Assembly (NCBI GenBank): GCA_037382465.1
Contig: JARRPX010000001.1
Coordinates: 1 to 64,000 of the forward strand
Origin: Anaerolineales bacterium
Lineage (GTDB): Bacteria; Chloroflexota; Anaerolineae; Anaerolineales; E44-bin32
Direction: 5' to 3'
Length of the DNA stretch: 64,000 bases
In this document: positions 2,899 through 18,004 of the stretch, in pieces
Numbering within the stretch: the first letter of the stretch is position 1
Layout of the letters: the number at the start of each line of letters is the position of its first letter
The notes under the pieces: model-generated
What the model saw: only the letters and a program-made list of their open reading frames with translations
Databases searched by the model: none
Told to the model about the DNA's origin: nothing
Translations under genes and position numbers: made by a program

Positions 2899-2932
2899 AA
2901 AAAGGCCGGTGCAACCTGCTGTTGCACCGGCC
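2899..2932 (-). terminator. Strong intrinsic terminator of the ubiquitin-like operon
   Basis: On the minus strand GGCCGGTGCAAC, a 5-base loop and GTTGCACCGGCC form a perfect 12-bp GC-rich stem (2904-2932) followed by a run of five U (2899-2903). It starts 10 bases after the VWA stop codon, so it marks the 3' end of the transcription unit that begins with the E1 gene. Confidence 0.92.
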
Positions 2933-2941
2933 ATCGCCCCC

Positions 2942-4063
2942 TCAGACCTGCTTATCTTTGAATTTGATTTTCGGCTTGCGCTTTCTCGGCGAAGGAAGCT
3001 TCGCCGAGGATGCTTGCGAGACCAGGCGTCCGATCACGGCCGGCACGAACAACAGCGCCAGCAGAACGGCAAGAGCGGTCAAGAACATGCTCCAACTGGC
3101 CGGATCGCCCACTTCCGGTACCAATCCGCCCGGATTGTAGGCCGCGGCTTCCGTTGTTGCGTTCGTCTCCGCCAGCGAAACGGTGAGTTGACGCGTCAAC
3201 CCGTCACGCAGCTCGCCCGGTGAAGTGTAGGTGATGGCGTACTCACTCTGCATCACGCGCGCGTAGCGTTGGTATAGGCGGGTCAACCCGGCCGGGTCAT
3301 TGGCGTAGGCGTATTCACCCCCGGCGCGATTCGCCAGCTCGATCAAAGCGGGTTCGTCTATGCCGGCCAATGTGGCACTCTGATCTTCCGGATTGCCCAG
3401 TCCAATCGTGGATATCGAGAGACCGGAAGGGCCGATGCGTGCGATCACGTTGCCCAGGTCGTTCTGGCTGACGTTGTCCATGCCGTCCGTCAAGACGATG
3501 ATCGCTTTCCGTCCGGGGATCGGATCCAACACGTCGGTCGCCTCGACCAGGGCGTCGTACATCGCCGTATCTTTATCGGCGACCAGACTGTCGATCGCCG
3601 TTTTTAACTGGTCGACGTCCGCGGTGAGTGGCTGTGCGTAGGTGATTTCTGTGTTGAAACTCATCAACCCCGTCTGGTCGCCGGGGCGCATTTGGTCGAC
3701 GTACGCCTTGGCGGCCTCTTTCGCCGTGTCCAACTTGTTCGCGCTGTACATGCTGCCGCTCACATCCATGACCAGCATCGTGGTGAGCGAATCGATCACC
3801 GCCGCGTTGCCCTGCATCTGATCCGGTTGGATCGTCACGCCGTTCTCCTGGATCAGCAGGCGGCTGGGGTCGATGCCCACCGGTTCACCTGCTTCGTCTG
3901 TTACGGAGATGTACACGGTGACGGAGGGAAATTGAGACGTGTCGATCTGCGTGATGATCACCAGCGGTTCCGCCTGGTCCTGTGCCCATGCCGGCGAAAT
4001 CAGCGTTGCCGCCAGCAGGAGCGTCACGATCCCGATCGAAAGGCTTTTTCTTCCAGATGACAT
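2942..4063 (-). CDS. Secreted membrane-anchored VWA-domain protein
   Basis: The protein has 373 residues: a Sec signal peptide (1-28, cleavage after AWA), an N-terminal beta domain, and a von Willebrand A domain (about 93-275). The VWA domain has an intact MIDAS: D100-V-S-G-S104, a Thr/Asn loop in SFNTE, and LTDGMDN. A C-terminal transmembrane helix (about 326-348) is followed by a short Lys/Arg-rich tail. By positive-inside logic the VWA domain faces outside and the tail is cytosolic. The Shine-Dalgarno is perfect (GGAGGTGA, 5 bases before ATG). It is the last gene of the ubiquitin-like operon, 4 bases after the FHA gene. The tail contains KPKIK, also found repeated in the E2 tail. A metal-dependent adhesion or sensing role and a link to the modifier pathway are inferences. 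Confidence 0.88.
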   Translation of the reverse strand: MSSGRKSLSIGIVTLLLAATLISPAWAQDQAEPLVIITQIDTSQFPSVTVYISVTDEAGEPVGIDPSRLLIQENGVTIQPDQMQGNAAVIDSLTTMLVMDVSGSMYSANKLDTAKEAAKAYVDQMRPGDQTGLMSFNTEITYAQPLTADVDQLKTAIDSLVADKDTAMYDALVEATDVLDPIPGRKAIIVLTDGMDNVSQNDLGNVIARIGPSGLSISTIGLGNPEDQSATLAGIDEPALIELANRAGGEYAYANDPAGLTRLYQRYARVMQSEYAITYTSPGELRDGLTRQLTVSLAETNATTEAAAYNPGGLVPEVGDPASWSMFLTALAVLLALLFVPAVIGRLVSQASSAKLPSPRKRKPKIKFKDKQV

Positions 4064-4067
4064 CTTC

Positions 4068-4925
4068 TCACCTCCGCTCGTGATACTTGAGTGACGTGTT
4101 GCCCATGCGGATCGTTTGCCCGTTCCCCAGCTGCGTGCGCTCGATCTTCCGGCTGTTGACGTACGTGCCGCTCAGGCTCATGTCTTTCAATGTGAAATGG
4201 GATCCTCCGCCGATCAACATCGCATGCTGCGGATCGACGTCCGGATCCGGTAAAGCGATTTCCGATTTGAGCGGGCTGCTGCCGATGATCGCCGTCGGTC
4301 CCCCATCGGGGAGGAACTTATCGAGGATGAACGTGTTTCCTTTGAGCTTTCCGCTGGTCACTTCCAACCAGGCTCGTGAAAGCAGAACGACGATCAGGGC
4401 GATCAGCGCACCGATGAATGCGCCCAGCAGCACGAGGCCGGTGGCCTTTCCGGAGGTGAGATCTTCTCCCCAGAAGTTGACCGTTTCGAGCAGCGTTCCG
4501 CCGATGAAGCCGCCCAGGGCTCCGCCGATTGCGCCTTTCCACATCTGCGAGCCGCCGGTGACTCCTTCCGCTAGGCCGATCAACATGCCGAAGAATCCCC
4601 AGCCGATGCCGCGGCCGATTCCGCCGGCGCCGACGATTTGAAAGATCGCTTCAGCGATGGGAAGCCCGATTCCCCCGGCGATCAAGCCAACGATGCCGCC
4701 GTACAACCCGGCGCGCAAGGCGCGCAGCGGACTCATCGTAACCAGCTCCTCGGCCGCTCCCAGCGGCACGCCGAGGCAAATCCCGAGGAGCCCCCCGACG
4801 ACCACGTCGCTGAGATAAATGCTGCGGCTGAACGAGAGCCCCAGTATGTTACTCAGTTGCCAGCCAACGAGGCCGCCGATGGCGCCGAGGACGGCATAAT
4901 AATATGCTCTCATCCTTCTACTCAT
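4068..4925 (-). CDS. Multi-pass glycine-zipper membrane protein with C-terminal FHA domain
   Basis: I chose ATG 4925 (MSRRMRAYYYA) because GGAG lies 9 bases upstream; an ATG at 4940 is also open. Residues 1-190 are hydrophobic and glycine-rich (GGIVGLIAGGIGLP, GGALGGFIGG), giving roughly five or six membrane segments with glycine-zipper character. The last 80 residues form a forkhead-associated domain: a variant GSSPLKSEIALPD core, DPQHAMLI, KDMSLSGTYVNSRKI and GQTIRMGNT. FHA domains bind phosphothreonine peptides, so this protein could recruit phosphorylated partners to the membrane. The start overlaps the end of the JAMM gene and the stop is 4 bases before the VWA gene, so translation is probably coupled. 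No Ser/Thr kinase gene is present in the window. Confidence 0.88.
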   Translation of the reverse strand: MSRRMRAYYYAVLGAIGGLVGWQLSNILGLSFSRSIYLSDVVVGGLLGICLGVPLGAAEELVTMSPLRALRAGLYGGIVGLIAGGIGLPIAEAIFQIVGAGGIGRGIGWGFFGMLIGLAEGVTGGSQMWKGAIGGALGGFIGGTLLETVNFWGEDLTSGKATGLVLLGAFIGALIALIVVLLSRAWLEVTSGKLKGNTFILDKFLPDGGPTAIIGSSPLKSEIALPDPDVDPQHAMLIGGGSHFTLKDMSLSGTYVNSRKIERTQLGNGQTIRMGNTSLKYHERR

Positions 4926-5505
4926 TATCTTCATCTCCATCTTCGGCCGGCTGATCTTCCGCCCGACTCATATTGCGCCAATCCACGACGCTTTCTTTGC
5001 CGTCGTCGAGGATTTCGCAAAACCCAAAATAGCGATTGGGATCGAGGTGGCCATCCTCCTGGCGAATGAAAAACCCACCGATCGTTGTATGGGGTTCGAG
5101 CACCAGGGCGACCTGCCAGGGTTCACTGAAAAAGTGATCGTGGATGAAAAGGTCGTAGTGCGAGAGAAAGATCCCCATTTTCGGGTGGGTGTGGTACCAG
5201 CCGACGAGTTGTTTTCCGGGAAAGCGCTCCTCGAGGTCTTCGTTCATGGCCACCAGGGTGTCCTGTGTGAACGTCAGAAAAGCGCTTCCTTGCCGCGTGA
5301 AGCGAGCCGGGATTACCCCCTCAATCAGAACGAATTGTTCTTCCGTCCGGGCGTCTACGTGCCAACTGCCCACCAAACCGCCGCCGACTTCGTTCTCGAG
5401 GTCGATCCTGCTGTGTTCTGTGAACTGGATGAAAGCCGCCGAGGTGACAAAAACACCAACCAGTGGCTTCGTGCCGTCCTCGAAGTGAGGATGCCAACAG
5501 CGCAT
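4918..5505 (-). CDS. JAMM/MPN-family isopeptidase (deubiquitinase-like)
   Basis: This is a Zn-dependent protease of the JAB1/MPN family, the class that removes ubiquitin-like tags. Counting from ATG 5505, the catalytic residues are all present: Glu39 in NEVGGGLVG, then H105-T-H107-P, Ser115 and Asp118, spaced exactly as H-x-H-x7-S-x2-D. The ATG at 5505 has GGAGG 9 bases upstream; the reading frame is also open from a GTG at 5526, right after an in-frame TAG. The frame overlaps the tail of the UBL reading frame. Comparison with the UBL-E2 paralogue suggests the residues just upstream (IVMRCWHPHF) once continued a UBL domain, so this may derive from a UBL-JAMM fusion. It would be the deconjugating or maturing enzyme of the operon, acting in the cytosol. 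Confidence 0.9.
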   Translation of the reverse strand: MRCWHPHFEDGTKPLVGVFVTSAAFIQFTEHSRIDLENEVGGGLVGSWHVDARTEEQFVLIEGVIPARFTRQGSAFLTFTQDTLVAMNEDLEERFPGKQLVGWYHTHPKMGIFLSHYDLFIHDHFFSEPWQVALVLEPHTTIGGFFIRQEDGHLDPNRYFGFCEILDDGKESVVDWRNMSRAEDQPAEDGDEDNE

Positions 5506-5740
5506 CACGATCGTCCTCCGGGACACCCGCAGCCTCTAAAGTTTCCTCCTCCTGCAACTCGCGGCCCAGCGCTTTGCTGTCGAGGCGATAGCCCATCGGC
5601 CGGCCATCCGGGCCAACCGTGGGCAACTCCAACGATGTCGTCAGTTCGGGGAGTAATTCCTTCACGATGACGTCGTCGGGAACCTCGGCGGTTCGTGTGC
5701 CACCAGCCGGTAAGACGAGGGTTACGGGAATGTCTGCCAT
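5321..5740 (-). CDS. Ubiquitin-like (YukD-like beta-grasp) protein, C-terminus ambiguous
   Basis: Start is ATG 5740 (MADIPVTLVLPAGG), with GGAGG 7 bases upstream. Residues 1-78 form a beta-grasp domain about 78% identical (61 of 78, counted by eye) to the N-terminal domain of the neighbouring E2, including an identical stretch from ELPTVGPDGRP to ALGRELQE. The GRPMGYRLDSKALG and ETL..AGVPEDD pattern resembles YukD/EsaB-type UBLs. The frame stays open to 5321, but after about residue 78 it turns Arg-rich and overlaps the JAMM gene by nearly 190 bases, so this tail is probably not real protein. A shift of frame near 5505-5512 would join the UBL to the JAMM domain. No Gly-Gly end is visible in either frame. 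Candidates: free modifier, adaptor UBL, or UBL-JAMM fusion broken by an indel. Confidence 0.75.
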   Translation of the reverse strand: MADIPVTLVLPAGGTRTAEVPDDVIVKELLPELTTSLELPTVGPDGRPMGYRLDSKALGRELQEEETLEAAGVPEDDRDALLASSLRGRHEATGWCFCHLGGFHPVHRTQQDRPRERSRRRFGGQLARRRPDGRTIRSD

Positions 5741-5820
5741 TTCACTTCCTCCTTGCCAAATTTTTGGTTTCGTTTCTTGCATGCGATCGCAGTGCACACA
5801 CAAATCGAATCGGTGTCTCT

Positions 5821-6720
5821 TTACTTCAATTTCACGCGTTTCTCTTTTTTGATCTTCGGCTTCTTCTTGATTTTCGGTTTCTTGTGGATCTTCGCTTTCT
5901 TGCCCTGCTTGTCATCGCCCAGTTTCACCCGCTCCGGCCGCAGCAGCTCGCGATTGTCGACGGGGAATGCATTGGGGTGTTTTGCACGGTAGGCCCGGCA
6001 CCAGCGAGCGGCTTCCGGGTCCCAGGGAAATGGCGGTTTGGTGGGATCGTCGTGGAAATTCTTGTACTGCAGCATTTCGCCCAGCATGATGATCAAACGA
6101 TCCAGAGAGCGCGCCGCCGTCCACCAGGCCGCATCGATGCACACGCTTCCGTTGATGTGATTGATGTTGGGATGCCATATCGGCGTGAGCCATTTAAGGC
6201 CCGGCCAGCGTTGGGGATATTGATTGTGGAGATACACTTCCACCTGGTGATGTTCGCCGAATTTCGGCTCGCCGCGCTTATTAACCGCAACGATACTCTT
6301 GCAGCGAAAAGTAACGATGTATCGCTCTGGGGGTACGCCCTTGTGAACGGACTGCGCCTCGAAGCTGATCAGCGACGTGCGTCCCTGCAGTTCGCGCATC
6401 CGCTCGTAATCGCCGCGCAAGCGGCGCATGCGGGGACTTTGGTCGAGCGAGACTTTACCCGCGGTGATGTCCGTCGTGACGATCAAACGATCCTCTTCCG
6501 GAACTTTCGCATCAGAAAGGGTCTCGTCTTCTTGCAGTTCGCGCCCCAATGCTTTGCTGTCCAGGCGATAGCCCATGGGGCGGCCGTCCGGCCCGACCGT
6601 CGGCAGTTCGAGAAGCGCGACCAACTCGGCCAACAAATCTCTTACTGCGACGTCATCCGGAACTTCCGCCGTTCGTGCGCCGCCGCTGGGCAAAACGATC
6701 GTTACTGTGATATCTGGCAT
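5821..6720 (-). CDS. E2 ubiquitin-conjugating enzyme with N-terminal UBL domain and Lys-rich tail
   Basis: The 299-residue protein has three parts. Residues 1-85 are a UBL domain nearly identical to the separate UBL. Residues 92-245 are a UBC fold: a helix with RMRRLRGDYERM, then YPQRWPGLKWLTPIWHPNI, catalytic Cys194 in GSVCID and Trp199-Trp200 behind it. His183-Pro-Asn185 (HPN) sits 8 residues before the Cys, the classical E2 spacing. Residues 270-299 form a very basic tail with repeats of KKPKIK. An E2 accepts an activated UBL from E1 as a thioester and passes it to lysines, usually with a RING E3. All three partners are in this operon, so a working cascade is likely. The fused UBL lacks a terminal Gly-Gly, so it may be an adaptor rather than a tag. 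Confidence 0.92.
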   Translation of the reverse strand: MPDITVTIVLPSGGARTAEVPDDVAVRDLLAELVALLELPTVGPDGRPMGYRLDSKALGRELQEDETLSDAKVPEEDRLIVTTDITAGKVSLDQSPRMRRLRGDYERMRELQGRTSLISFEAQSVHKGVPPERYIVTFRCKSIVAVNKRGEPKFGEHHQVEVYLHNQYPQRWPGLKWLTPIWHPNINHINGSVCIDAAWWTAARSLDRLIIMLGEMLQYKNFHDDPTKPPFPWDPEAARWCRAYRAKHPNAFPVDNRELLRPERVKLGDDKQGKKAKIHKKPKIKKKPKIKKEKRVKLK

Positions 6721-6751
6721 CGGGTATCCTTTCTGGTATCACCGCGAGAGA

Positions 6752-7594
6752 TCAACTGTTGTGATGGGGCACCTGGCACGTCCCCGTGACGCCCCAGCAA
6801 TCTGCATGATGCAGCGTGTGGCAAGTTGTGCATTCCACGACCCCACGGGGGTCGTTGGGATCGACATGTTCGAGACAATACGGGCAGCGGTGATCCACTT
6901 TCGTAGCCAAGTGGATCGAGGCGCTGATGCTTCTATTCCGCCCGCGACTTTTAACGCCGGCAGATCGAGGCGGCGATTTTCGAACCTTTGCACGCCCACC
7001 CATGTGTGTCCGCGCGGATGTCGCCGGCATACTCATCGCCATTGCACGCTTCGAGGCGACTCTGGCGTTTCCGCGTTGATTCCCTCGACGATGCACGGTT
7101 CGTCCCATCGTTGGCGCGTAGCTGCTGGCCTGCGACGAGGTCCTGCGGTCTCTGCGCCTCTGGTTCCATGCGCTGACCGCCGGCCAGGCCGCCAATGCCC
7201 CAAATGCAAAGCGCTGCAGTCCGTCCCAATCCGGCTCCAGCGAGGTGCGATCGATGAGATTCATGCCCAAAAGACCGCGGCTGAGCCATCCCATGAAGAT
7301 CAATCCCGTGCACAGCCCGAACAACGCCACCAACCAGCGCAGTGCTGCGCTGCGACGAGGCAGTGAAAAACGAGCGGCCAAGCCGGCTGCCAATCCCATC
7401 CCCACGTCACTCGCGATCGTGAGCACGACGGGCTCGATCGCCTTGTTGAGTATGTATACGACGGAGAATCCCAGGCCGGCCGCGATCGATGCGCTGCCGG
7501 TCACGGCCACACCGCTGTACAAGGGAGTGCGGGAGGATGAACGAATACCTGACATCATGGCGTGGGTTTGTGCACTCACGGGATCCTCATTCAT
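6752..7594 (-). CDS. Membrane-anchored RING-finger (prokaryotic RING) protein, candidate E3
   Basis: The 280-residue protein has about four hydrophobic segments (roughly 27-50, 55-77, 86-108, 127-143). A long, basic, Ser/Arg-rich and probably disordered linker (145-230) follows, then a C-terminal treble-clef/RING module. The likely zinc ligands are C237-x2-C240, C255-x2-C258, H262/H263, C266 (in HADCW) and C273, with H277/H278 at the end. The CPYC...CxxC...HHxxCW...GxC pattern matches prokaryotic RING fingers predicted from comparative genomics to act with E2 enzymes. The first 8 bases overlap the end of the E1 gene and the E2 gene starts 31 bases after it, so co-expression is expected. I infer an E3 that brings the E2 to the membrane; ligase activity is not proven by sequence. 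Confidence 0.85.
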   Translation of the reverse strand: MNEDPVSAQTHAMMSGIRSSSRTPLYSGVAVTGSASIAAGLGFSVVYILNKAIEPVVLTIASDVGMGLAAGLAARFSLPRRSAALRWLVALFGLCTGLIFMGWLSRGLLGMNLIDRTSLEPDWDGLQRFAFGALAAWPAVSAWNQRRRDRRTSSQASSYAPTMGRTVHRRGNQRGNARVASKRAMAMSMPATSARTHMGGRAKVRKSPPRSAGVKSRGRNRSISASIHLATKVDHRCPYCLEHVDPNDPRGVVECTTCHTLHHADCWGVTGTCQVPHHNS

Positions 7595-9263
7595 GCAAAC
7601 GCACTCGGCCGCGAGCTGCGTTTTCCGCTACAGAATCTGTTGTACGCTCGTCCGTCGAGGGAATGTCCCCGCCGAGTTTGATGGCGGATCGCTCGAAGTG
7701 CCGGAAGTGGAGCGTTTCCGGCAGGTCTCCAGTCAACTCATAGAAACGGTATTCCTGCCCGTTGTGGGAGCGGATCACGTGCAGCGGCGGAACGCCCAGC
7801 GTAACCAGGGTGCGGTGCAGGAATGGCTCGTCTCCTGTAATCACGTGGGTCATCTCGACGCGCCGGACCAGGCCGCAGCCGGGGCAATGCGCCGCATCGA
7901 AGCTGACCTCCGAGATCGGCCGCATCACCTCCTCGATCGTCTCACATTTGCGGCACTCGAGTGCGAGCACCAATTCCTGATCGAGTTCGATGATCGCATC
8001 GGGTCCGAGATCGCCGCGTGCGATCTGCAGCAATTCCATGAGAGTCGTGTCTTCGGCGCGCTTGTTCAGCTCCACGATCTCCCCGTATGTCCAATGACTT
8101 TCGCAGTCCTCGCGCCGAACGTAGCTGGTGGTGTGCATCGTGTTGGTCATGCCGTTGAAATGCACCACTTTTCCGGGTTCGACGGGAATGTCGTGAATGA
8201 GTTTCAAGGCTTCCTGCGCCTGCATGCCACCGATGATCGAGGCGATCGTCGGCGTCGTGGGCACCTTGCCCAGAAGGATGTTGGCGCGAGCCAGGAGCGG
8301 GCAGGAATAACGCATGGATATCTCCCTGCGCGCTTGCTCCGTCAGGGTGCATTCAAAACATGCCCCCTCCTCTGGCACAAACACGCGCACCAATCCGAGC
8401 AATTCCTGGATCGCGCCGTCCACCCAGGGCTTCCCCAGCCAGTGACAGAAACGATTCACGGCCAGCCGAGCCTCGCGGTTATCGAGGCAGCCGATAATGG
8501 CGTCCATGCGGCGGAACACACCCAGGCCGACCTGCGTGCGAACGTCGCCGTTCAAATACTGTATCTGAATGTCGGGATTGAGTTCCCGCAAGCGGGCGGC
8601 CGCAATCTCCGCCTTCGGACGGTCGTTGTCGCGCTCGCGGAAAAGCACGGAGCGGGAGAGATTCGCCGCCTCGATGACGTCGAAGTCGAGGATGAACAGA
8701 TGCCCGACTCCCATCAGGGCGAGATTCTTGGCGACCTCGTTCCCCAGGGCGCCCGCGCCGACGATCATCACTTTCGCTTCTTTGACTTTGTCGCGCTCCC
8801 ACCAGGAGATGAAGTCAAAGGTGCCCAGTCGATCCTGGCGCAGATTGGGAATCCGCAGCGGTGCGTCCGTGCTGGCGCTGACGCGAATCGGCCGCGGGCT
8901 GTCCGTCGAGTCTTCGGAGGAATTGCGTTTATCCGGATCGGGATCCGGGTCCGCGACAGCCTCACTGAGGCGCACGCCGCGCACGCGATGAACGAGGGCC
9001 AATTCCGTCGCCTGGGCATAATTGCTGCGGTCGAGCGGCCGCACGAACGAGCCGACTCCTTGCTTGACCTCGATCAAACGCGTTTCAGAAAGCGATTTCA
9101 GCGCCTCGCGCAGCGTCGCCCGGCTGACGTTAAGTTGTTTGATCAGGTTGCGCTCCGAAGGGAGCTTGTCCCCGGGTTTCAACTCCCCATCCAATATGGA
9201 GGCCGCCAATCGACCGGCCACAACTTGAGCCAAGGTTGGGTGTGTAACGGGGTGGATTTTCAT
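7587..9263 (-). CDS. E1-like activating enzyme fused to N-terminal GntR (FadR-type) winged helix
   Basis: This is an uninterrupted 558-residue protein. Residues 8-76 are a GntR winged helix (GDKLPSERNLIKQLNVSRAT, LREAL, RLIEVKQGVGSFV) of the FadR kind. After an acidic linker (100-135), residues 142-360 form a ThiF/E1 adenylation domain. Its landmarks are the nucleotide loop G169-A-G-A-L-G174, acidic Asp193/Asp195, NLSR (201-204) and Lys217. C302-x2-C305 in ECTLTEQ resembles the catalytic C-T-L of UBA-type E1s; Cys321 is another candidate. TTPTIASIIGGMQAQEALK matches the E1 crossover region. C437, C440, C460 and C463 form a zinc ribbon. There is no internal Met between the domains that would separate them. 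It heads the operon and probably both activates the UBL and binds the operator at 9296-9306. Confidence 0.9.
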   Translation of the reverse strand: MKIHPVTHPTLAQVVAGRLAASILDGELKPGDKLPSERNLIKQLNVSRATLREALKSLSETRLIEVKQGVGSFVRPLDRSNYAQATELALVHRVRGVRLSEAVADPDPDPDKRNSSEDSTDSPRPIRVSASTDAPLRIPNLRQDRLGTFDFISWWERDKVKEAKVMIVGAGALGNEVAKNLALMGVGHLFILDFDVIEAANLSRSVLFRERDNDRPKAEIAAARLRELNPDIQIQYLNGDVRTQVGLGVFRRMDAIIGCLDNREARLAVNRFCHWLGKPWVDGAIQELLGLVRVFVPEEGACFECTLTEQARREISMRYSCPLLARANILLGKVPTTPTIASIIGGMQAQEALKLIHDIPVEPGKVVHFNGMTNTMHTTSYVRREDCESHWTYGEIVELNKRAEDTTLMELLQIARGDLGPDAIIELDQELVLALECRKCETIEEVMRPISEVSFDAAHCPGCGLVRRVEMTHVITGDEPFLHRTLVTLGVPPLHVIRSHNGQEYRFYELTGDLPETLHFRHFERSAIKLGGDIPSTDERTTDSVAENAARGRVRLHE

Positions 9264-9295: not shown

Positions 9296-9306
9296 TGGTC
9301 TGACCA
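9296..9306. promoter_or_regulatory. FadR/GntR-family operator upstream of the E1 operon
   Basis: TGGTCTGACCA is an exact match to the FadR-subfamily consensus TNGTNNNACNA. It is embedded in a wider imperfect palindrome, with CTGGT at 9295-9299 and ACCAG at 9311-9315. It lies 33 bases upstream of the E1 start codon, in the divergent region shared with the alpha-2-macroglobulin gene. The only GntR protein in the window is the GntR-E1 fusion, so autoregulation is the simplest reading. Confidence 0.75.
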
Positions 9307-9532
9307 CCATACCAGAGGAGCATAGTGGAGTCAACCCCCCGCAGAGTACTATTTCATCAAGTGCCGGTTTTCGGGTCAGACTTGCATCTGTTCGATTGGC
9401 CGTCAGTCGTGCTACACTGTAGCAGCCTCTTGAATGTGCCTACGGAGGAATTGACCGCCGTCGAACCTGAATACAAGGAATTTCAAAAACAGAGAAGTCG
9501 CGGGTTGTGGAGAGAAAACTGCGACATCGCCC

Positions 9533-12500
9533 GTGGGCGAAGCGACCGAACCTGTAGAACTCGTGGACGATGGTCGCCCGCTGGCGCCCAGTGTGATCGG
9601 GCAGGATCCTCCTTTGGGAGAGGAAACCCAGCTCGATGCCGATCTCGAAATATTCTTCGATCAAGCGATGGACGCCGAGGCAACGACGTCCGCCTTTAAA
9701 TTGATCGGCCCGGGCGGCGAGGCCGTCGTCGGGCAGGTTAGCTGGCCGGACGAGAGTACCTTGCGTTTCGATCCCCGGGATGAACTGCTTCCCGATACGA
9801 CCTACGAGGCGGTTGTGGGAATCGGCGCGACCAGCGCCGAAGGTGTTCCCCTCGCGGCGGAACGCAGCGTTCTCTTCAGCACCATCACCAGCCTTCAGGT
9901 CACGCAGGTATTTCCTGCAGACGGCACGGCCGACGTCGAATCGAGCAGCCTGATCACGGCGATGTTCAACCGCCCCGTGGTTCCGCTGGTGACGTCCGAA
10001 GACCAGGCGACGCTGGTGCAGCCGCTGTCGATTTCTCCCCCGGTGGAGGGAGAGGGTGAATGGTTGAACACCTCGATCTACGTCTTCCGCCCGGACGAAC
10101 CGCTCGTCGGGAACACCACCTATACCGTGTCCGTCGCCGCCGGATTGCGCGACGTCACTGGTTCAGCTGCCAGCCAATTGGCGCAAGCCGTCTCGTGGCA
10201 GTTCACCACGCAAGCGCCGACCATCGAGCGCATCGCCATTCCCGATCTGATCACGCGGCCACCGGAATATTACGTCGATGTTCCCCTGAACGCCACGTTT
10301 TCCATCCGCTTCCGACAGCCGATGGAACAGGAAAGCACAAATGCTGCCTTCGCCTTGCGATCCAACGACGGCCGTCAGGTGGCTGGCCGTCTCGAATGGG
10401 ACGAAAAAAGCCTGGAGATGATTTTCACGCCCAATCACTTGCTGGAATTCGGCAAGGAATACAGCCTCAACCTGAGCAGCAGCGCGAAAGCGCTGGAAGG
10501 AGGTACATTAAAGGACGGCCTCATCTGGCACTTCTACACCGTATTTTCGCCGGCGATCGTGAGCGTTACACCCGCCAATGGGCAGGTTCAGAACTATTAT
10601 TCCGACCAATTAACGATCGAATTTGCTTCCCCAATGGATAAGAAGAGTCTGGCGAATCGAGTGCAGGTGACCCCGCGCATTGAAGGTGAGCTCGATTGGA
10701 GCTACTTCAATCGCAGGATGACGATTTTCGGGTTTGCGCCTTCCACCTCCTACCAGGTGCGGATTCTCCCCGGCATGGCCGACCCATATGGCAATGTCAT
10801 CTCTGAGGGCATGACGGTCAATTTCATCACCGCCGCCCGGACGCCTTCCGCTTACCTGCAGACACCGGGCGAGTACACACTTCTTCGGGCGCAGGGCGAT
10901 CACGAGATCTATCTGCGCTACGTAAATGTCAACACGGTTCAATTCTCCCTGTATCCGCTGGACATTAAAAATCTCCTTGGTTTCAGGGCGGAGAATACCG
11001 CGACGATCGATTACCGCCCGTTCCCTGGCAGCCTAGAGAATTCCTGGTCGGCAACGCTGACTGGCCCGCGCGACGAATTCAATCTCGAGAAGATCGAGCT
11101 GCGGGACGCCGAAGGTCAGCCGTTGTCCCCTGGGATGTATTTCCTGGGGATGACCACTGCAGATGTTACGTACACATCGCAATGGCTCGACGCCCGCATC
11201 CTGATCGTCGCCACCGAGAACATGACCGTAAAAACCACCCTGTCCGATGCGCTGCTCTGGCTTACGGATCTCGAGAGCGGGGAACCGGTCGAAAATGTTC
11301 AGGTTACAGCGTATGAGTATGAGGAAACCTATGGGCCCATCGGTGGTGCGAAAACCGATGAAGACGGCCTGGCTACGATCGAACTCCCGGTTCCTGAGGA
11401 ACGCTACGTCGAACGTTTCTATGTCGCACAGGGACAGGGGCACTTCGCCTTCGGGCAAAACTACATGGGTATCGATGTCTACCCAGGCGATTACGGCATC
11501 TACACCAATTATTATCTAAAACCCGACCAACCATCCGTCTACATCTATACCGATCGTCCGCTCTACCGCCCGGGACATACCGTTTACTTCAAGGGCATCG
11601 TGCGCATGAACGACGACCTCGACTACAGTCTTCCCTCGGAAAAGCAAGTTGAGGTCACGATCAGCAACTACGACGAGACGATCTACGAGGCCACTCTCCC
11701 CATTTCGTCTTTTGGCAGCTTCAACGGTGACTTGACCCTGGACAGCGAAGCCGCATTGGGCTACTACACGATTCGCGCTAGTTTCGTTGGAGAAGAGGAC
11801 ACGATCGGGTCCCGGTCGTTCAGCGTCGCTGAGTACCACAAACCGGAATTCGAGGTTGCGGTCACGACGACTGCGAGCGACATCCTCGATGGCGATACCA
11901 TCGAGGCTACGGTCCAGGCCGATTTCTATTCCGGTGGTGCGGTTGCGAATTCGCAGGTCGATTGGGTTTTGTATGCCGAAGACTACATCTTTCGAGCATC
12001 CGGAGAGTACAGCCGCTATCAATTCTACACTTACGAAAACGATGTGTATTATCTGTACTACGAGCCGTACAGTTCGGGTGAAATCATCGCCCAGGGCGAG
12101 GCCGTCACTGATGAAAATGGAGGACTGCAGGTTACGATTCCGGTCGATCTGAGCGAGATGGGCTCCAGCCAGCGCCTGACGCTCGAGGCTACGGTGACGG
12201 ACTTGACCGGCAACGCCGTCAGCAGCCGCACGCAGCTCCTCGCGCACTGGACCGAATTCTACGTCGGCGCCAAAGCGCAGCAGTACGTTGGACTGGCGGA
12301 TGAAGAGCAGACGTTCGATCTCGTCGTCCTGGATTGGTACGAAGAACCCGTCGCCAATCAAACGCTGACGGCGGAAATCGTCGAACGCCACTGGAACAGC
12401 GTCCAGGAGATCGACGAATTTGGCCGCTCCGTCTGGACGTCATCGGTGGAAGAGGTTCCCGTGACGGGATCGATCGAGACGAGTACGGATGAAGAAGGAC

Positions 12501-15409
12501 GCGCCACAGTGAGCTTCGTGCCGCCCAAGGGAGGCGTGTACCGCTTGAAAGTCAGCGGCAAAGACAGCCGGGGCACGCCGGCGACCACCTCCGCATATTT
12601 GTGGGTCTCGGGCAGCGACTACGTCCCCTGGCGCCGCACGAACGACCACGGCTTGCGGCTGGTCAGCGACCGCGACAGCTACGAACCGGGTGACACGGCC
12701 GAAATCCTGATCACCTCTCCTTTCCAGGGTACGGTTTATGCCCTGGTCAGCGTCGAGCGCGGGCACGTGCGCAGCGCAGAGGTCGTCGAGCTGAAGAATA
12801 ACAGCAGCATCTATTCCTTCCCCGTCACCGCCGACATGGCCCCGAACGTATATCTGTCCGTCGTGCTGATCAAGGGTGTGGATGACACGACCCCGGCTCC
12901 GGACTACCGCATGGGACTCATCGAGATCAACGTCGATACCCGCGAACAGGCGCTGAACATCGAAGTCACACCGGACACCACAGAAGCCGGACCCGGCGAC
13001 AGCGTGACCTACACGGTATCGGCGACCGATTATGCCGGACGGCCCGTACAAGCGGAGCTGTCTTTCTCGCTCGTGGATCTGGCATTGCTGGCGCTCACTG
13101 ATCCCAATGCGCCTCCGATGATCGACTATTTCTACGATACGCGCGCCCTGACCGTGCTCACTGCCATGCCGCTTACGATGAGCATCGAATCGTTCAACGC
13201 AGAGATCGTCGAACACGCCAAGGGCGGCGGTGGCGGTGGGGGCGACCTGGGGGTCATCGAGGTGCGGGAAGATTTTCCGGACACGGCTTTCTGGGATGCG
13301 CAGGTCGTCACCGACGCCAACGGCGATGCCAGCGTCACGGTCACGCTGCCCGACACCCTCACCACGTGGCGCATGGACGCACGTGCGGTCACGAAAGACA
13401 CCCTCGTGGGGGAAAACACGAACGACATCGTCAGCACGAAGCCGCTGCTCGTGCGCCCTCAAACCCCTCGCTTTTTTGTCGCGGGCGACGAAGTGGTGCT
13501 CGGCACGGCGGTGCACAACAACACCGGACGGCCCATCGCCGCAGCAGTGTCTCTCGAAGCCGAGGGACTGCAAATCGAGTCGAATCCCGAGCTCAGTTTC
13601 TACATCCGCGGCGGTGAACAGGTATACGCGCAATGGCAGGTGCGTATCGATGATGAAGCGGATCGAGTGGACATGGTCTTTTCCGCCAGCAGTGTGAATT
13701 ACGCTGACGCGAGCCGGCCTCCGTTGGGAACTCTGGACGGAAAGGGAATCCCCGTGTATCGATACGAAGTCCCCGAGACCGTGGGGACCGGAGGCCAATT
13801 GACGGAAGCCGACTCTCGCACGGAGGCCATCAGCTTACCCATCTTCCCGGGCTACGACATCACGGAAGGCAGCCTGACCGTCCGTCTGACGCCGTCGCTC
13901 GCTGCCAGTTTCACGGACGGGTTGACCTACCTGGAACACTTCCCCTACGAGTGTACGGAGCAAACCGTCTCACGATTTTTGCCCAACGTGATCACCATGC
14001 GGACTCTCAAGGAGTTCGGCATTCGCGATGCGGAACTCGAGGCCAACCTGGACGAGCAAGTCAACACCGCCCTGCAGCGGCTGTACAATCAGCAGCGCGC
14101 CGACGGTGGTTGGGGATGGTGGCCCTTGAGTGACAGCAACCCGCTGTCCACGGCTTACGTCGTCCAGGGACTGATCGAAGCCGAGGCCAGTGGATACGAA
14201 ATCAGCACGCAGGTGCTTGAAGACGCAATCCTGTACCTTCAAGAACAACTCCAACCGGTCGAGAGCTTCGAGGCGACGTATCAACTCAACCGCCAGGCGT
14301 ACCTGCTGTACGTCCTGGCGAGCGCCGATCGCGCCGCAGTGAGCCAGACGGTTAAATTGTACGAAGCGCGGCAGTCGATGGATATTTACGCGCGTGCCTA
14401 CCTGGCGCAGACGTTGTACATGATCGACGCTGAAGATCCACGTCTGGATACCATGATCTCGGATTTCGTGAATCTTGCAGCGCTGTCGGCGACCGGATCC
14501 CATTGGAATGAAGCGCAAAAGGATTACTGGAACTGGAATACCGACACGCGCACGACGGCCATCGTTCTCGACACCTTGCTGCGTCTCGACCCGGACAATG
14601 CCCTGAATTCAGGGACGGTACGCTGGCTGATGGCCTCCCGCACCCAGGGCCGCTGGCGTGGGACGCAGGAAACGGTTTGGGCGCTGCTGGCCCTCAACCG
14701 TTGGGCCAAAATCAGCGGAGATCTCGAGCCCGATTATCTCTTCGAGGCGGCGTTGAACGGGGAAAGCCTCGGCGGAGGAGCGGCCAACGTGGAGACCATG
14801 CGAACGACGACGGAATTTCAGGTTCCGGTCGCCGACTTGTTCACCGATAAGGTCAACCGCTTGACGATCGCTCGCAACGACGGACCGGGCAATCTGTATT
14901 ACACGTCCCACTTGATGTTGTCCATGCCCGTCGAGGAGGTCCAATCGTTCAGCCAGGGCGTAACGGTTACTCGCAGGTACTATCACCCCGACGATCGCAA
15001 CACGCCGATCACGTCCATCCCGCAGGGCGAGAATTTTCTGGTTCGCCTGACGATCATCGTTCCGGACAGCCTGCACTACGCCATCGTCGAAGATCCCTTG
15101 CCGGCAGGGCTGGAGGCGATCTCGCAATCACTCAATACCAGCCCGCAGCAAAGCGCGCCGGCGCGTTACGATTTCGAAGATCTGCTGAATTCAGGATGGG
15201 GTTGGTGGTACTTCGATCACGTCGAACTGCGGGATGAAAAAGTCGTGATCTCTGCGGATTATCTACCGGCCGGCGTGTATGAGTATGTCTATCTCGTGCG
15301 AGCCTCCATGCCGGGGATCTATCACGTCATCCCGCCGACCGCACAGGAATTCTACTTCCCGGAGGTCTACGGGCGCGGCGAAGGCACGCTGTTCGAAGTG
15401 ACTCAATAG
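9533..15409 (+). CDS. Bacterial alpha-2-macroglobulin (YfhM-like)
   Basis: This is a giant protease-trapping or envelope-defence protein of 1958 residues from GTG 9533. The N-terminal part (1-400) contains repeated bacterial Ig-like modules (PDESTLRFDP, PNTTYTV-type strands). MG domains follow with YIYTDRPLYRPGHTVYFKG, YEPGDTAEILI and the poly-Gly bait-like stretch near residue 1231. Next comes the family hallmark VREDFPDTAFWDAQVVTD. The thioester motif C-T-E-Q is present at Cys1474 (YECTEQTVSRFLP), so covalent trapping is possible. The toroid-like GGWGWW segment and receptor-like domain complete it. No signal peptide is encoded after the GTG. Upstream in the same frame VAGCGEK looks like a lipobox without its hydrophobic stretch. 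It converges on pbpC, its usual partner. Confidence 0.93.
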   Translation: MGEATEPVELVDDGRPLAPSVIGQDPPLGEETQLDADLEIFFDQAMDAEATTSAFKLIGPGGEAVVGQVSWPDESTLRFDPRDELLPDTTYEAVVGIGATSAEGVPLAAERSVLFSTITSLQVTQVFPADGTADVESSSLITAMFNRPVVPLVTSEDQATLVQPLSISPPVEGEGEWLNTSIYVFRPDEPLVGNTTYTVSVAAGLRDVTGSAASQLAQAVSWQFTTQAPTIERIAIPDLITRPPEYYVDVPLNATFSIRFRQPMEQESTNAAFALRSNDGRQVAGRLEWDEKSLEMIFTPNHLLEFGKEYSLNLSSSAKALEGGTLKDGLIWHFYTVFSPAIVSVTPANGQVQNYYSDQLTIEFASPMDKKSLANRVQVTPRIEGELDWSYFNRRMTIFGFAPSTSYQVRILPGMADPYGNVISEGMTVNFITAARTPSAYLQTPGEYTLLRAQGDHEIYLRYVNVNTVQFSLYPLDIKNLLGFRAENTATIDYRPFPGSLENSWSATLTGPRDEFNLEKIELRDAEGQPLSPGMYFLGMTTADVTYTSQWLDARILIVATENMTVKTTLSDALLWLTDLESGEPVENVQVTAYEYEETYGPIGGAKTDEDGLATIELPVPEERYVERFYVAQGQGHFAFGQNYMGIDVYPGDYGIYTNYYLKPDQPSVYIYTDRPLYRPGHTVYFKGIVRMNDDLDYSLPSEKQVEVTISNYDETIYEATLPISSFGSFNGDLTLDSEAALGYYTIRASFVGEEDTIGSRSFSVAEYHKPEFEVAVTTTASDILDGDTIEATVQADFYSGGAVANSQVDWVLYAEDYIFRASGEYSRYQFYTYENDVYYLYYEPYSSGEIIAQGEAVTDENGGLQVTIPVDLSEMGSSQRLTLEATVTDLTGNAVSSRTQLLAHWTEFYVGAKAQQYVGLADEEQTFDLVVLDWYEEPVANQTLTAEIVERHWNSVQEIDEFGRSVWTSSVEEVPVTGSIETSTDEEGRATVSFVPPKGGVYRLKVSGKDSRGTPATTSAYLWVSGSDYVPWRRTNDHGLRLVSDRDSYEPGDTAEILITSPFQGTVYALVSVERGHVRSAEVVELKNNSSIYSFPVTADMAPNVYLSVVLIKGVDDTTPAPDYRMGLIEINVDTREQALNIEVTPDTTEAGPGDSVTYTVSATDYAGRPVQAELSFSLVDLALLALTDPNAPPMIDYFYDTRALTVLTAMPLTMSIESFNAEIVEHAKGGGGGGGDLGVIEVREDFPDTAFWDAQVVTDANGDASVTVTLPDTLTTWRMDARAVTKDTLVGENTNDIVSTKPLLVRPQTPRFFVAGDEVVLGTAVHNNTGRPIAAAVSLEAEGLQIESNPELSFYIRGGEQVYAQWQVRIDDEADRVDMVFSASSVNYADASRPPLGTLDGKGIPVYRYEVPETVGTGGQLTEADSRTEAISLPIFPGYDITEGSLTVRLTPSLAASFTDGLTYLEHFPYECTEQTVSRFLPNVITMRTLKEFGIRDAELEANLDEQVNTALQRLYNQQRADGGWGWWPLSDSNPLSTAYVVQGLIEAEASGYEISTQVLEDAILYLQEQLQPVESFEATYQLNRQAYLLYVLASADRAAVSQTVKLYEARQSMDIYARAYLAQTLYMIDAEDPRLDTMISDFVNLAALSATGSHWNEAQKDYWNWNTDTRTTAIVLDTLLRLDPDNALNSGTVRWLMASRTQGRWRGTQETVWALLALNRWAKISGDLEPDYLFEAALNGESLGGGAANVETMRTTTEFQVPVADLFTDKVNRLTIARNDGPGNLYYTSHLMLSMPVEEVQSFSQGVTVTRRYYHPDDRNTPITSIPQGENFLVRLTIIVPDSLHYAIVEDPLPAGLEAISQSLNTSPQQSAPARYDFEDLLNSGWGWWYFDHVELRDEKVVISADYLPAGVYEYVYLVRASMPGIYHVIPPTAQEFYFPEVYGRGEGTLFEVTQ

Positions 15410-15511: not shown

Positions 15512-18004
15512 TCATCCCTCCGCAGGTTGCACTTCGAAGTGGATCGTTTCGGAGAAGATCGATTCGCCCTCCGGTGTGATCCCCTCTGTCCGAAGTTCGT
15601 GCGTGCCAACTACGAGCGGCCACCAGACTTGATACGGCGGTCCGTCGAAGGATTTCAGTGAAATGCCATCAAGCCGGATCGTGACTCGATCCAGCGTTCG
15701 ATCGCTGCCGACTGCGATGAGAATGCGTTGCGATTCCGCGGGCTGGCTCGGGGAAAGGCGGTAGATCGTATTCGCATCCGGAGATCGAAAATATATCTGC
15801 CCGCTTTCGTGCTCTTCTCCGGAGTTCACGACTTCAATACCGCAGATCAAGTCGTCCAGCAGCCATAAATTCTGGGATCTCGCCCAGGAATGGGCTTCCT
15901 CGGGCAAATCCAGCACGATCCGCACCACTTTACGATCCACAGGTGTCGTCTCGTCGGCCAGGCACATCGACTGGCGGTCGAGTGTGACCCTTTGATACAG
16001 ATCGTCCTCCGTCGAGGGTTCCGTTCCGCGAATGAACCATTCGAATCGCCGGTAGGGGCAGGCTTCGCTGGGCAGCAGGCCGGAGAGTGCGCAGACTTCT
16101 TCGCGCAGTACGCCCTCCGGCCGGACGAACGCTTCCTCAGGCACGCCGCTGGTGACCGTGCGCATGAATTGATGCCAGATCGGTGCTGCGCCGCTCAACC
16201 CGGTGACGTTGAACATGGGCTTGCTGTCGGCGTTTCCCACCCATACGCCGACCGCGAGGTCCGGCAGATAACCGATGGTCCAATTGTCGCGGAAATCCGT
16301 GGTCGTTCCCGTCTTTACGGCCGCGGGCCTTCCGATCTGCAGCAGGCTGTTGTGCCCAAAGCCGATGGATCGCGCATCGTCGTCGCTGAGGATGTCCGTG
16401 ATCAACCAGGCGACCCGCGGATCGAGGACCTGGCGTGCCTCGGCCGGATCCGGTGTGTAGTGGCTGTGTCCTTGCGCGTCCTCGATCCCGAGGATGGCAA
16501 CCGGGGCGACGAATTGGCCGGCGTTGGCAAAAGCGGCGTAGGCTGCAGTGAGTTCCAGCAGCCGCACCTCGCCTCCGCCCAGCGCCAGGGAGAGATCGTA
16601 TCCATCCGGATCGCCAAAAGTCGTGATGCCGAGATTCTTGGCCAGATCGAGCGCGCGATCTACGCCCACTTCATCCAAAACGCGGACCGCAGGAATGTTC
16701 AACGACGACGCCAACGCCTGGCGCAGGGAAACCGGACCATGTTCCAGATGGTCGAAATTGACCGGTGCGTATGCGTAGCCGTCATGGGTGACGAATGCCG
16801 TATACACGTCCAAGATCATCGATGCCGCGGTCAGCGGGTCCTGCCGGGTCGGGTTCAGGGCCGCGGCGTAAACCAGTGGCTTAAAGGCCGAACCCGGCTG
16901 GCGAGGCGAAACGGCCATGTTGATGGCGCCGAAAGTTGCAGGATCGAAATAGTCCGGGCTGCCGACCATGGCCAGTATCTCGCCAGTCTGTGGGTCCAGG
17001 GCGACGAGTGCCGCGTTGCCGATTCCCGCGCCGGGCGAGGCGATGTCTGCCTGGTTTAACCCGGCCAATTGGTTTGCGATGATACGTTCGGCGTGGTGCT
17101 GCCAATCGAGATCGAGACTCGTACGAACCGTGAGCCCACCCGCGCTGTACAGCGTGTCCTCCGCCACTAGATCTCCAAGTCTGTCGCGGATCATGAGCAC
17201 GAAATGAGGCGCTTCGATCGGGTAGGGGCTGGACACAAATACGAGTTGCTCGCGGGCGGCTGAAGTGCGCAAATCCGTGGAGATGTATTCCTGCTTCTCC
17301 ATCAACTCGAGCACCACCTGTTGGCGCTCCTTCGCTTTGTCCAGGTCCGTCAGCGGGTTGTAGAGTGAGGGCGCCTGCGGCAATCCTGCCAGGAGTGCGC
17401 TCTCGGCCAGGTCCAATTCGCGCACGGGTTTTCCAAAGTAGGTTTGGGCAGCCGCTTCGACGCCGTACGACATGGCGCCGTAGTACATGTGATTGAGATA
17501 CAAGGCAAGGATTTCATCCTTATCCAGATCGTGCGCCAGCTGCCAGGCCAGGATGCTCTCGCGCAGTTTACGCCGCAGCGTGCGTTGTTGCCGTTCCCCC
17601 TTTTCGAGCAGCAGATTGCGCGCAACCTGTTGGGTGATCGTGCTTCCACCGGAGAGAGTCTCGCCCCCGCGCAGGTTGATCCACAAGGCGCGCAGGATGC
17701 CGCGCAGATCGACGCCGGGATTCTCGTAAAAGGTGCTGTCTTCCGTGGCGATCGTTGCGTTGATGAGATCGTCTGGGATGTCTTCAATGGCGACGACGGT
17801 GTGCCGGCCGCCTTCGTCTGCCAGCAGATCGTAGAGCAGGCGTCCGTAGCGATCGGTGATCCGAATGCTGGGAAGCTGTGGCGCCTGCGGAATTCGATCC
17901 ACCGACGGAAGATCGAGGAACAACCATATCGCAACCAGCACGGCACAGACCAGAGCGAACGCGAAGAAATATCGAAAACGCAGGATGCGTTTAATCGTTT
18001 TCAT
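15512..18004 (-). CDS. pbpC: Penicillin-binding protein 1C (GT51 plus transpeptidase)
   Basis: This is a bifunctional peptidoglycan synthase of 830 residues. An N-terminal membrane anchor (9-30) is followed by a GT51 glycosyltransferase domain with ATEDSTFYENPGVD (catalytic Glu88) and GGSTITQQVARN (119-130). The transpeptidase has S372-A-F-K375, S434-L-N436 and K564-T-G-T567. The last 110 residues are an Ig-like PBP1C C-terminal domain (VTIRLDGISLKSFDGPPYQVWWPL). It polymerises glycan strands and crosslinks them outside the membrane. PBP1C and bacterial alpha-2-macroglobulin are a classic gene pair; here they face each other across a shared terminator. All catalytic motifs are intact. Confidence 0.95.
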   Translation of the reverse strand: MKTIKRILRFRYFFAFALVCAVLVAIWLFLDLPSVDRIPQAPQLPSIRITDRYGRLLYDLLADEGGRHTVVAIEDIPDDLINATIATEDSTFYENPGVDLRGILRALWINLRGGETLSGGSTITQQVARNLLLEKGERQQRTLRRKLRESILAWQLAHDLDKDEILALYLNHMYYGAMSYGVEAAAQTYFGKPVRELDLAESALLAGLPQAPSLYNPLTDLDKAKERQQVVLELMEKQEYISTDLRTSAAREQLVFVSSPYPIEAPHFVLMIRDRLGDLVAEDTLYSAGGLTVRTSLDLDWQHHAERIIANQLAGLNQADIASPGAGIGNAALVALDPQTGEILAMVGSPDYFDPATFGAINMAVSPRQPGSAFKPLVYAAALNPTRQDPLTAASMILDVYTAFVTHDGYAYAPVNFDHLEHGPVSLRQALASSLNIPAVRVLDEVGVDRALDLAKNLGITTFGDPDGYDLSLALGGGEVRLLELTAAYAAFANAGQFVAPVAILGIEDAQGHSHYTPDPAEARQVLDPRVAWLITDILSDDDARSIGFGHNSLLQIGRPAAVKTGTTTDFRDNWTIGYLPDLAVGVWVGNADSKPMFNVTGLSGAAPIWHQFMRTVTSGVPEEAFVRPEGVLREEVCALSGLLPSEACPYRRFEWFIRGTEPSTEDDLYQRVTLDRQSMCLADETTPVDRKVVRIVLDLPEEAHSWARSQNLWLLDDLICGIEVVNSGEEHESGQIYFRSPDANTIYRLSPSQPAESQRILIAVGSDRTLDRVTIRLDGISLKSFDGPPYQVWWPLVVGTHELRTEGITPEGESIFSETIHFEVQPAEG

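Follow-up and report, generated by a model that had tools for sequence, protein, structure and literature searches.

Prokaryotic systems that combine E1, E2, RING, JAB and ubiquitin-like protein (UBL) genes were reportedly predicted by Burroughs, Iyer and Aravind in 2011, with YukD-like UBLs proposed as the modifiers. For the operon of Caldiarchaeum subterraneum the cascade has been reconstituted, with its JAMM peptidase maturing the UBL precursor (PMC5654768, PMC6043591), and in vWA-MoxR-FtsH systems a JAB peptidase has been proposed to release the fused UBL from UBL–E2 proteins (Kaur et al., 2020, PMC7159879). Here we describe a predicted UBL-conjugation system that is of a type already known (PMC5654768, PMC7159879) and has a new arrangement; it is encoded by seven open reading frames (ORFs) on the minus strand at 2942–9263 of a 64,000-nt stretch of DNA (hereafter the window) from an Anaerolineales bacterium (contig JARRPX010000001.1).

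The genes encode, in order, an E1 with a GntR-type winged helix-turn-helix (wHTH), a membrane RING protein, a UBL–E2 fusion, a free YukD-like UBL, a JAMM peptidase, an FHA protein and a VWA protein (Table 1). An earlier reading of the same sequence (the original prediction) had proposed a seven-gene unit, and the ORFs were found where it had placed them. The tight spacing it described, about 80 bases at most, is also borne out: gaps measure 4–80 nt (RING–E2, 31 nt; E2–UBL, 80 nt; FHA–VWA, 4 nt), and the E1/RING and JAMM/FHA genes overlap by 8 and 23 nt. Among 101 relatives of the same order, 25 gave a match of any kind and 22 a full E2, and all 20 relatives that were fetched carry the seven genes in this order apart from losses at contig ends, which are responsible for two loci without VWA and three with a partial E1. 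A GTDB-wide scan recovered 88 loci, the best 80 of which all belong to Chloroflexota by their titles, mostly to Anaerolineae, and include complete operons in the cultured Leptolinea tardivitalis YMTK-2, Leptolinea sp. HRD-7 and Pelolinea submarina MO-CFX1. In a phylum-level sample 16 of 400 genomes gave a match, and across the pooled loci the complete order is kept in 63 of 87, with contig ends cutting most of the remaining ones. Gene order shared among relatives to this extent argues that the seven-gene unit is not a product of chance. Sequence identity across relatives is 69–85% for E2 and 60–79% for E1, and residues for catalysis and metal binding hardly vary across the family in E1, E2, RING and JAMM. 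Conservation across some 80 genomes gives good support to the original proposal of a ubiquitin-type cascade that includes a membrane RING and a DNA-binding E1.

Table 1. Features of the operon and its flanking regulatory sequences in the window.
Feature	Position	Strand	Description
Operator	9296..9314		TGGTCTGACCACCATACCA; overlaps promoter of E1
E1 promoter-like pattern	9334-9306	-	TTGACT-17-TATGGT, upstream of E1
E1	7587..9263	-	GntR/PdhR-like wHTH (residues 12-74), ThiF adenylation domain (152-387), candidate catalytic C321, Zn-ribbon-like CxxC pairs, phi-x-phi tail
RING E3 candidate	6752..7594	-	About four predicted membrane helices (25-141), disordered linker, C-terminal RING
UBL-E2 fusion	5821..6720	-	YukD-like UBL (1-88) ending DITAG, UBC domain, HPN (183-185), catalytic C194, basic phi-x-phi tail
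Free UBL, C-terminally truncated	5507..5740	-	In frame to VPEDDR (5507), then in another register until a stop at 5321
Deletion junction	5506..5507	-	161-167 nt of L023/L024 absent
JAMM peptidase	4918..5505	-	E46, H112, H114, S122, D125; N-terminus shortened by deletion; start ATG 5505, GTG 5508/5526 also possible
FHA protein	4068..4940	-	Glycine-rich hydrophobic N-terminal region, C-terminal FHA (218-280) without canonical phosphate-binding Arg
VWA protein	2942..4063	-	Signal peptide, VWA domain with intact metal ion-dependent adhesion site (MIDAS; DxSxS, T, D), one C-terminal hydrophobic segment, basic phi-x-phi tail
Intrinsic terminator	2904..2932	-	12 bp stem, then TTTTTGTG

In a genome from another part of the phylum (G110) the seven genes are present with an unfused E2, while two diverged loci (G236, G456) combine an E1 without the wHTH, a UBL ending in TAG, an E2, two JAMMs and RING-like neighbours. 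Because the G110 E2 is unfused and the G236/G456 set is simpler, it appears that the E2 fusion and the wHTH of E1 were acquired later. The G456 locus (L151:5344-11058), whose RING-like neighbours are two zinc proteins, can be described as a simpler sister system in the same class.

Domain profile searches support every domain named in the original prediction, apart from the RING, which falls under its Pfam cut-off (Prok-RING_1, 23.4 bits against 29.1). The E1 matches ThiF (8e-58) and GntR (PF00392, 1.2e-20) in Pfam and Uba1-like proteins in a profile search of the PDB, and its model resembles MoeB (Z 21.8) and the SUMO E1 (Z 21.6). The ECTL sequence that had been listed among the key E1 residues is the weaker candidate for the catalytic site: the cysteine of RYSCPLLAR, C321, is invariant among relatives and is the better candidate for the catalytic residue, and ECTL, by comparison with Uba3 and MoeB, presumably belongs to a Zn-binding CxxC (C302/C305). 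The UBL–E2 protein matches UQ_con (7e-11) and YukD (5e-9) in Pfam and E2-25K/UBE2K in a profile search (1.9e-8), with HPN and C194 invariant among relatives; the JAMM peptidase matches JAB (3e-10) and keeps its E, HxH, S and D in 76 of 76 sequences; and the free UBL matches YukD (8e-10). No other E2 and no other Prok-RING_1 domain was found in the genome that carries the window. The eight putative RING ligands (C237, C240, C255, C258, H263, C266, C273 and H277) are conserved in 21 sequences and near-invariant in about 75, and although a fold search with the full model was dominated by its membrane helices, the AlphaFold segment 234–279 matches the RING of rice APIP6 (8i3x; Z 4.9, 2.5 Å over 45 residues). 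With these ligands conserved and this segment matching a plant RING, a RING with two zinc sites is credible despite the Pfam score. In G110 the membrane-helix region of the RING protein (L150:1793-3049) is duplicated, giving two profile matches to one N-terminal region.

The tail of the E2-fused UBL is DITAG in 78 of 78 fusions, and conservation stops abruptly behind it: the columns after the glycine are variable, with a small residue (A, G or S) at the next position in 77 of 78. Such an end to conservation right behind the glycine would be expected if the JAMM releases the fused UBL by cutting after DITAG; alternatively, UBL and E2 could form a fixed module that keeps the DITAG tail for another reason.

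The two remaining proteins match their profiles (FHA, Pfam 9e-12; VWA, Pfam 3e-18 and TIGR03436), and the VWA retains its MIDAS residues in 68 of 68 sequences. The FHA has GS in place of GR in 74 of 74 sequences, with serine at the position of the phosphate-binding arginine, and in most the serine ahead of the histidine in the pocket is replaced by A or D. Since the arginine is replaced throughout, a role as a phospho-reader is doubtful, and that of a classical one is not supported. The VWA shares with E1 and E2 a basic phi-x-phi motif at the C-terminus (e.g. PRIRLK, GRVKLRD, SRIKLKD), and a similar stretch, KIQLAVVEEHRCPYC, lies ahead of the RING. The motif occurs in 63 of 81 E1, 65 of 82 E2, 58 of 67 VWA and 35 of 78 pre-RING sequences (shuffled means 12.6, 11.3, 6.9 and 9.2) and is nearly absent elsewhere (JAMM, 1 of 78; FHA, 0 of 72), numbers that are descriptive because the pattern was formed after inspecting these tails. 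We read the motif as a putative shared docking peptide. Searching the 101 genomes with a DNA pattern of the tail returned 18 matches. Thirteen fall in the E2 or VWA of the operon; other proteins with a K-P-x-phi-x-phi-K tail were discarded, since the remaining five matches do not exceed the reversed control (seven).

A second set of observations concerns regulation. The E1 wHTH is closest to that of PdhR (9e-17 over residues 3–75), and Pfam finds no C-terminal ligand domain of the GntR/FadR type (FCD/UTRA) in the protein, the E1 part standing in its place. PdhR and FadR bind similar TGGTNNNACCA-type sites. The FadR-type operator noted earlier is recovered by this strict pattern in 57 of 70 E1 upstream regions, against 1.8% expected per 200 bp, at 24–43 nt ahead of the E1 start, and most of the regions that fail the strict count show the operator or a near match by eye. 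Aligning 58 sites gave the consensus TGGTCTGACCACCATACCA, in many cases with TGGTAT ahead of it, and the composite operator has a single match in the genome that carries the window, at 9296–9314. Shuffled sequences show a promoter-like pattern such as that ahead of E1 at least as often; by itself it is at chance level. At the other end of the unit the hairpin proposed as its terminator is present. Given an operator at the promoter and a PdhR-like wHTH, E1 is likely the repressor of its own operon, and we consider the evidence for E1-linked autoregulation to be good.

These features lead us to propose that the intact form of the operon is probably a self-contained, membrane-attached ubiquitin-like conjugation system whose E1 doubles as a repressor and whose output is non-proteolytic signalling. 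The ThiF domain of E1, probably through C321, would adenylate and take up the 88-residue YukD-like UBL by its single C-terminal glycine (-TAG) and hand it to C194 of the E2, and the membrane-anchored RING would aid its transfer to lysines on substrates that are in the membrane or associated with the envelope. The JAMM would strip the UBL from substrates and may also free the E2-fused UBL after DITAG. The FHA and VWA proteins would act as membrane partners, the VWA probably sensing conditions outside the membrane. Because E1, E2, the inner tail of the VWA and often the segment before the RING carry one and the same phi-x-phi peptide, the writers are probably gathered by a common binding partner, either the UBL or another member of the system. 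The PdhR-like wHTH would bind TGGTCTGACCA at the promoter, such that the amount or charging state of E1 sets expression. A non-proteolytic outcome is suggested by the lack of a proteasome: no 20S proteasome or HslV subunits were found in the 101 relatives (control positive in 10 of 14), and a proteasome-coupled role was rejected on this count of 0 of 101. We infer that the system serves membrane signalling.

The copy in the window is itself incomplete. Its free UBL (start 5740) can be aligned with those of relatives up to residue ~81, beyond which the frame is lost and reading continues into the JAMM; the window lacks 161–167 nt that L023 and L024, its two nearest relatives, have at this boundary, a loss that takes away the ...TADVTAG tail, the UBL stop and ~30 N-terminal residues of the JAMM. 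The free UBL of relatives has 88 residues and ends ...TAD[VI]TAG in 18 of 19, the other ending TAGGR; in the larger set every full-length free UBL of the family has TAG or TAGGR at its end, two apparent exceptions (L154, L156) being unrelated YukD-like proteins. The single UBL with the two-residue extension (L053:2248-2562) would need trimming, possibly by the JAMM. Given these endings, the window copy is damaged or misassembled as judged from the alignments, and the statement that key residues are intact throughout does not apply to it; of the two UBLs originally counted, the E2-fused one keeps its DITAG tail, the only such tail in the window, and the free one is truncated. A UBL–JAMM fusion by design was rejected, the relatives' UBL having its own stop ahead of the JAMM. 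For this genome alone, it is quite possible that the operon is decaying after a real deletion of the UBL tail: the missing stretch is far from a one-base slip, and no other YukD domain was found in the genome. We stop short of favouring decay, as all remaining genes are open with conserved key residues, and the assembly is a draft of 126 contigs in which a misassembly or strain variant is possible. Unless the assembly is in error, truncation of the free UBL would leave the window operon to work with the E2-fused UBL alone, if it works at all.

For the family as a whole, the reading as a signalling system has to be weighed against two others. The operon might be a chromosomal antiphage or conflict system, kin to Bil/Bub or to vWA-MoxR-FtsH systems with a UBL module, its membrane parts serving as sensor or effector; bacterial UBL operons of known role are mostly defensive, JAB, E1, RING and UBL–E2 fusions occur beside vWA in conflict systems (Kaur et al., 2020, PMC7159879), and presence within the order is patchy, any match being confined to the 25 genomes given above. 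We nevertheless consider a defence role unlikely. The operon lacks a known effector (nuclease, caspase or pore former), its E1 and E2 sequences are highly conserved, and PADLOC matches none of the UBL, E2, RING, FHA or VWA proteins, with E1 weakly matching BilD (1.2e-6) and the JAMM matching generic JAB models only. No relative was found in the viral contigs or plasmids searched, and a mobile or viral origin was rejected accordingly. Many copies occupy a fixed chromosomal site through a whole clade: nusG/rplK/rplA/rplJ/rplL lie upstream in 25 of 39 loci with enough upstream sequence, lexA lies downstream in 21 of 44 and both flanks occur in 20 (counts that include a few loci twice), and on an E1 tree the rpl–lexA copies fall in one part, with five changes against 20 for shuffled labels (L048 labelled by hand on lexA alone). 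These results favour the departure from known antiphage layouts that had been suggested from the window, with a stable rpl–lexA site in one large clade. Alternatively, the UBL could remain unconjugated, as a sulfur carrier or non-covalent regulator with E2 and RING as scaffolds; the E1 adenylation domain does resemble ThiF/MoeB, and many YukD proteins (EsaB/YukD of type VII secretion) are thought to be unconjugated. The conserved E2 with HPN and cysteine, the RING, the JAMM and the strictly conserved C-terminal glycine make this very improbable, as does the absence of WXG100 (PF06013) from the genome that carries the window (controls positive), on which a type VII secretion link was also rejected.

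Several points count against the conjugation and signalling system that we prefer. The family UBLs end in a single glycine instead of the usual GG, and the window's free UBL has lost even that usable C-terminal residue; the E1 structure model is of low confidence (predicted local distance difference test, 61), and the RING profile score is the subthreshold one given above. Substrates, signal and topology are themselves deduced, as is the repressor role of E1 from its domain and operator.

The window operon sits not at the rpl–lexA site but with a gene for a beta-helix-like protein on one side and one for an alpha-2-macroglobulin on the other. The latter (9533–15409) is divergent and encodes a 1958-residue bacterial alpha-2-macroglobulin with Big_5 domains and a TED, and beyond it on the minus strand lies an ORF resembling a penicillin-binding protein (15512–18004). 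On the other side are two similar lipoprotein-like ORFs (1–390 and 589–2667) with a CSLREA-type N-terminus (TNDGTCD/CSLREAI), the second of which has no Pfam match.

Complete bacterial E1–E2–RING–JAMM–UBL cassettes are few, and the Anaerolineae operon is intact in cultured bacteria; its inheritance is stable and does not follow defence islands. In hosts without a proteasome it could show the role of ubiquitin-like tagging outside degradation, and its fixed operator makes the idea of a self-regulating E1 directly testable. We tentatively put forward, as a possibility short of a favoured conclusion, a ubiquitin-activating E1 that doubles as the repressor of its own operon, with modifier charging feeding back on expression, within a membrane-anchored, proteasome-free bacterial UBL signalling system. 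The literature searched yielded no bacterial cassette that joins RING, FHA and VWA to a DNA-binding E1, and parts of this arrangement may have appeared in print earlier. The operon shares UBL, E1, E2 and JAMM with Bil and Bub but adds RING, FHA, VWA and the wHTH on E1, and PADLOC models miss its UBL and E2. Like that of C. subterraneum, it encodes UBL, E1, E2, a small RING and JAMM together; it differs in its single-Gly YukD-like UBL, UBL–E2 fusion, wHTH on E1, membrane-anchored RING, FHA and VWA, and in its proteasome-free bacterial host. With the vWA-MoxR-FtsH ternary systems (PMC7159879) it has in common JAB, E1, a prokaryotic RING and a UBL–E2 fusion beside vWA, whereas MoxR, FtsH, EAD1, beta-propeller and caspase are absent and the Anaerolineae vWA is predicted to be secreted or membrane-anchored, with its MIDAS intact.

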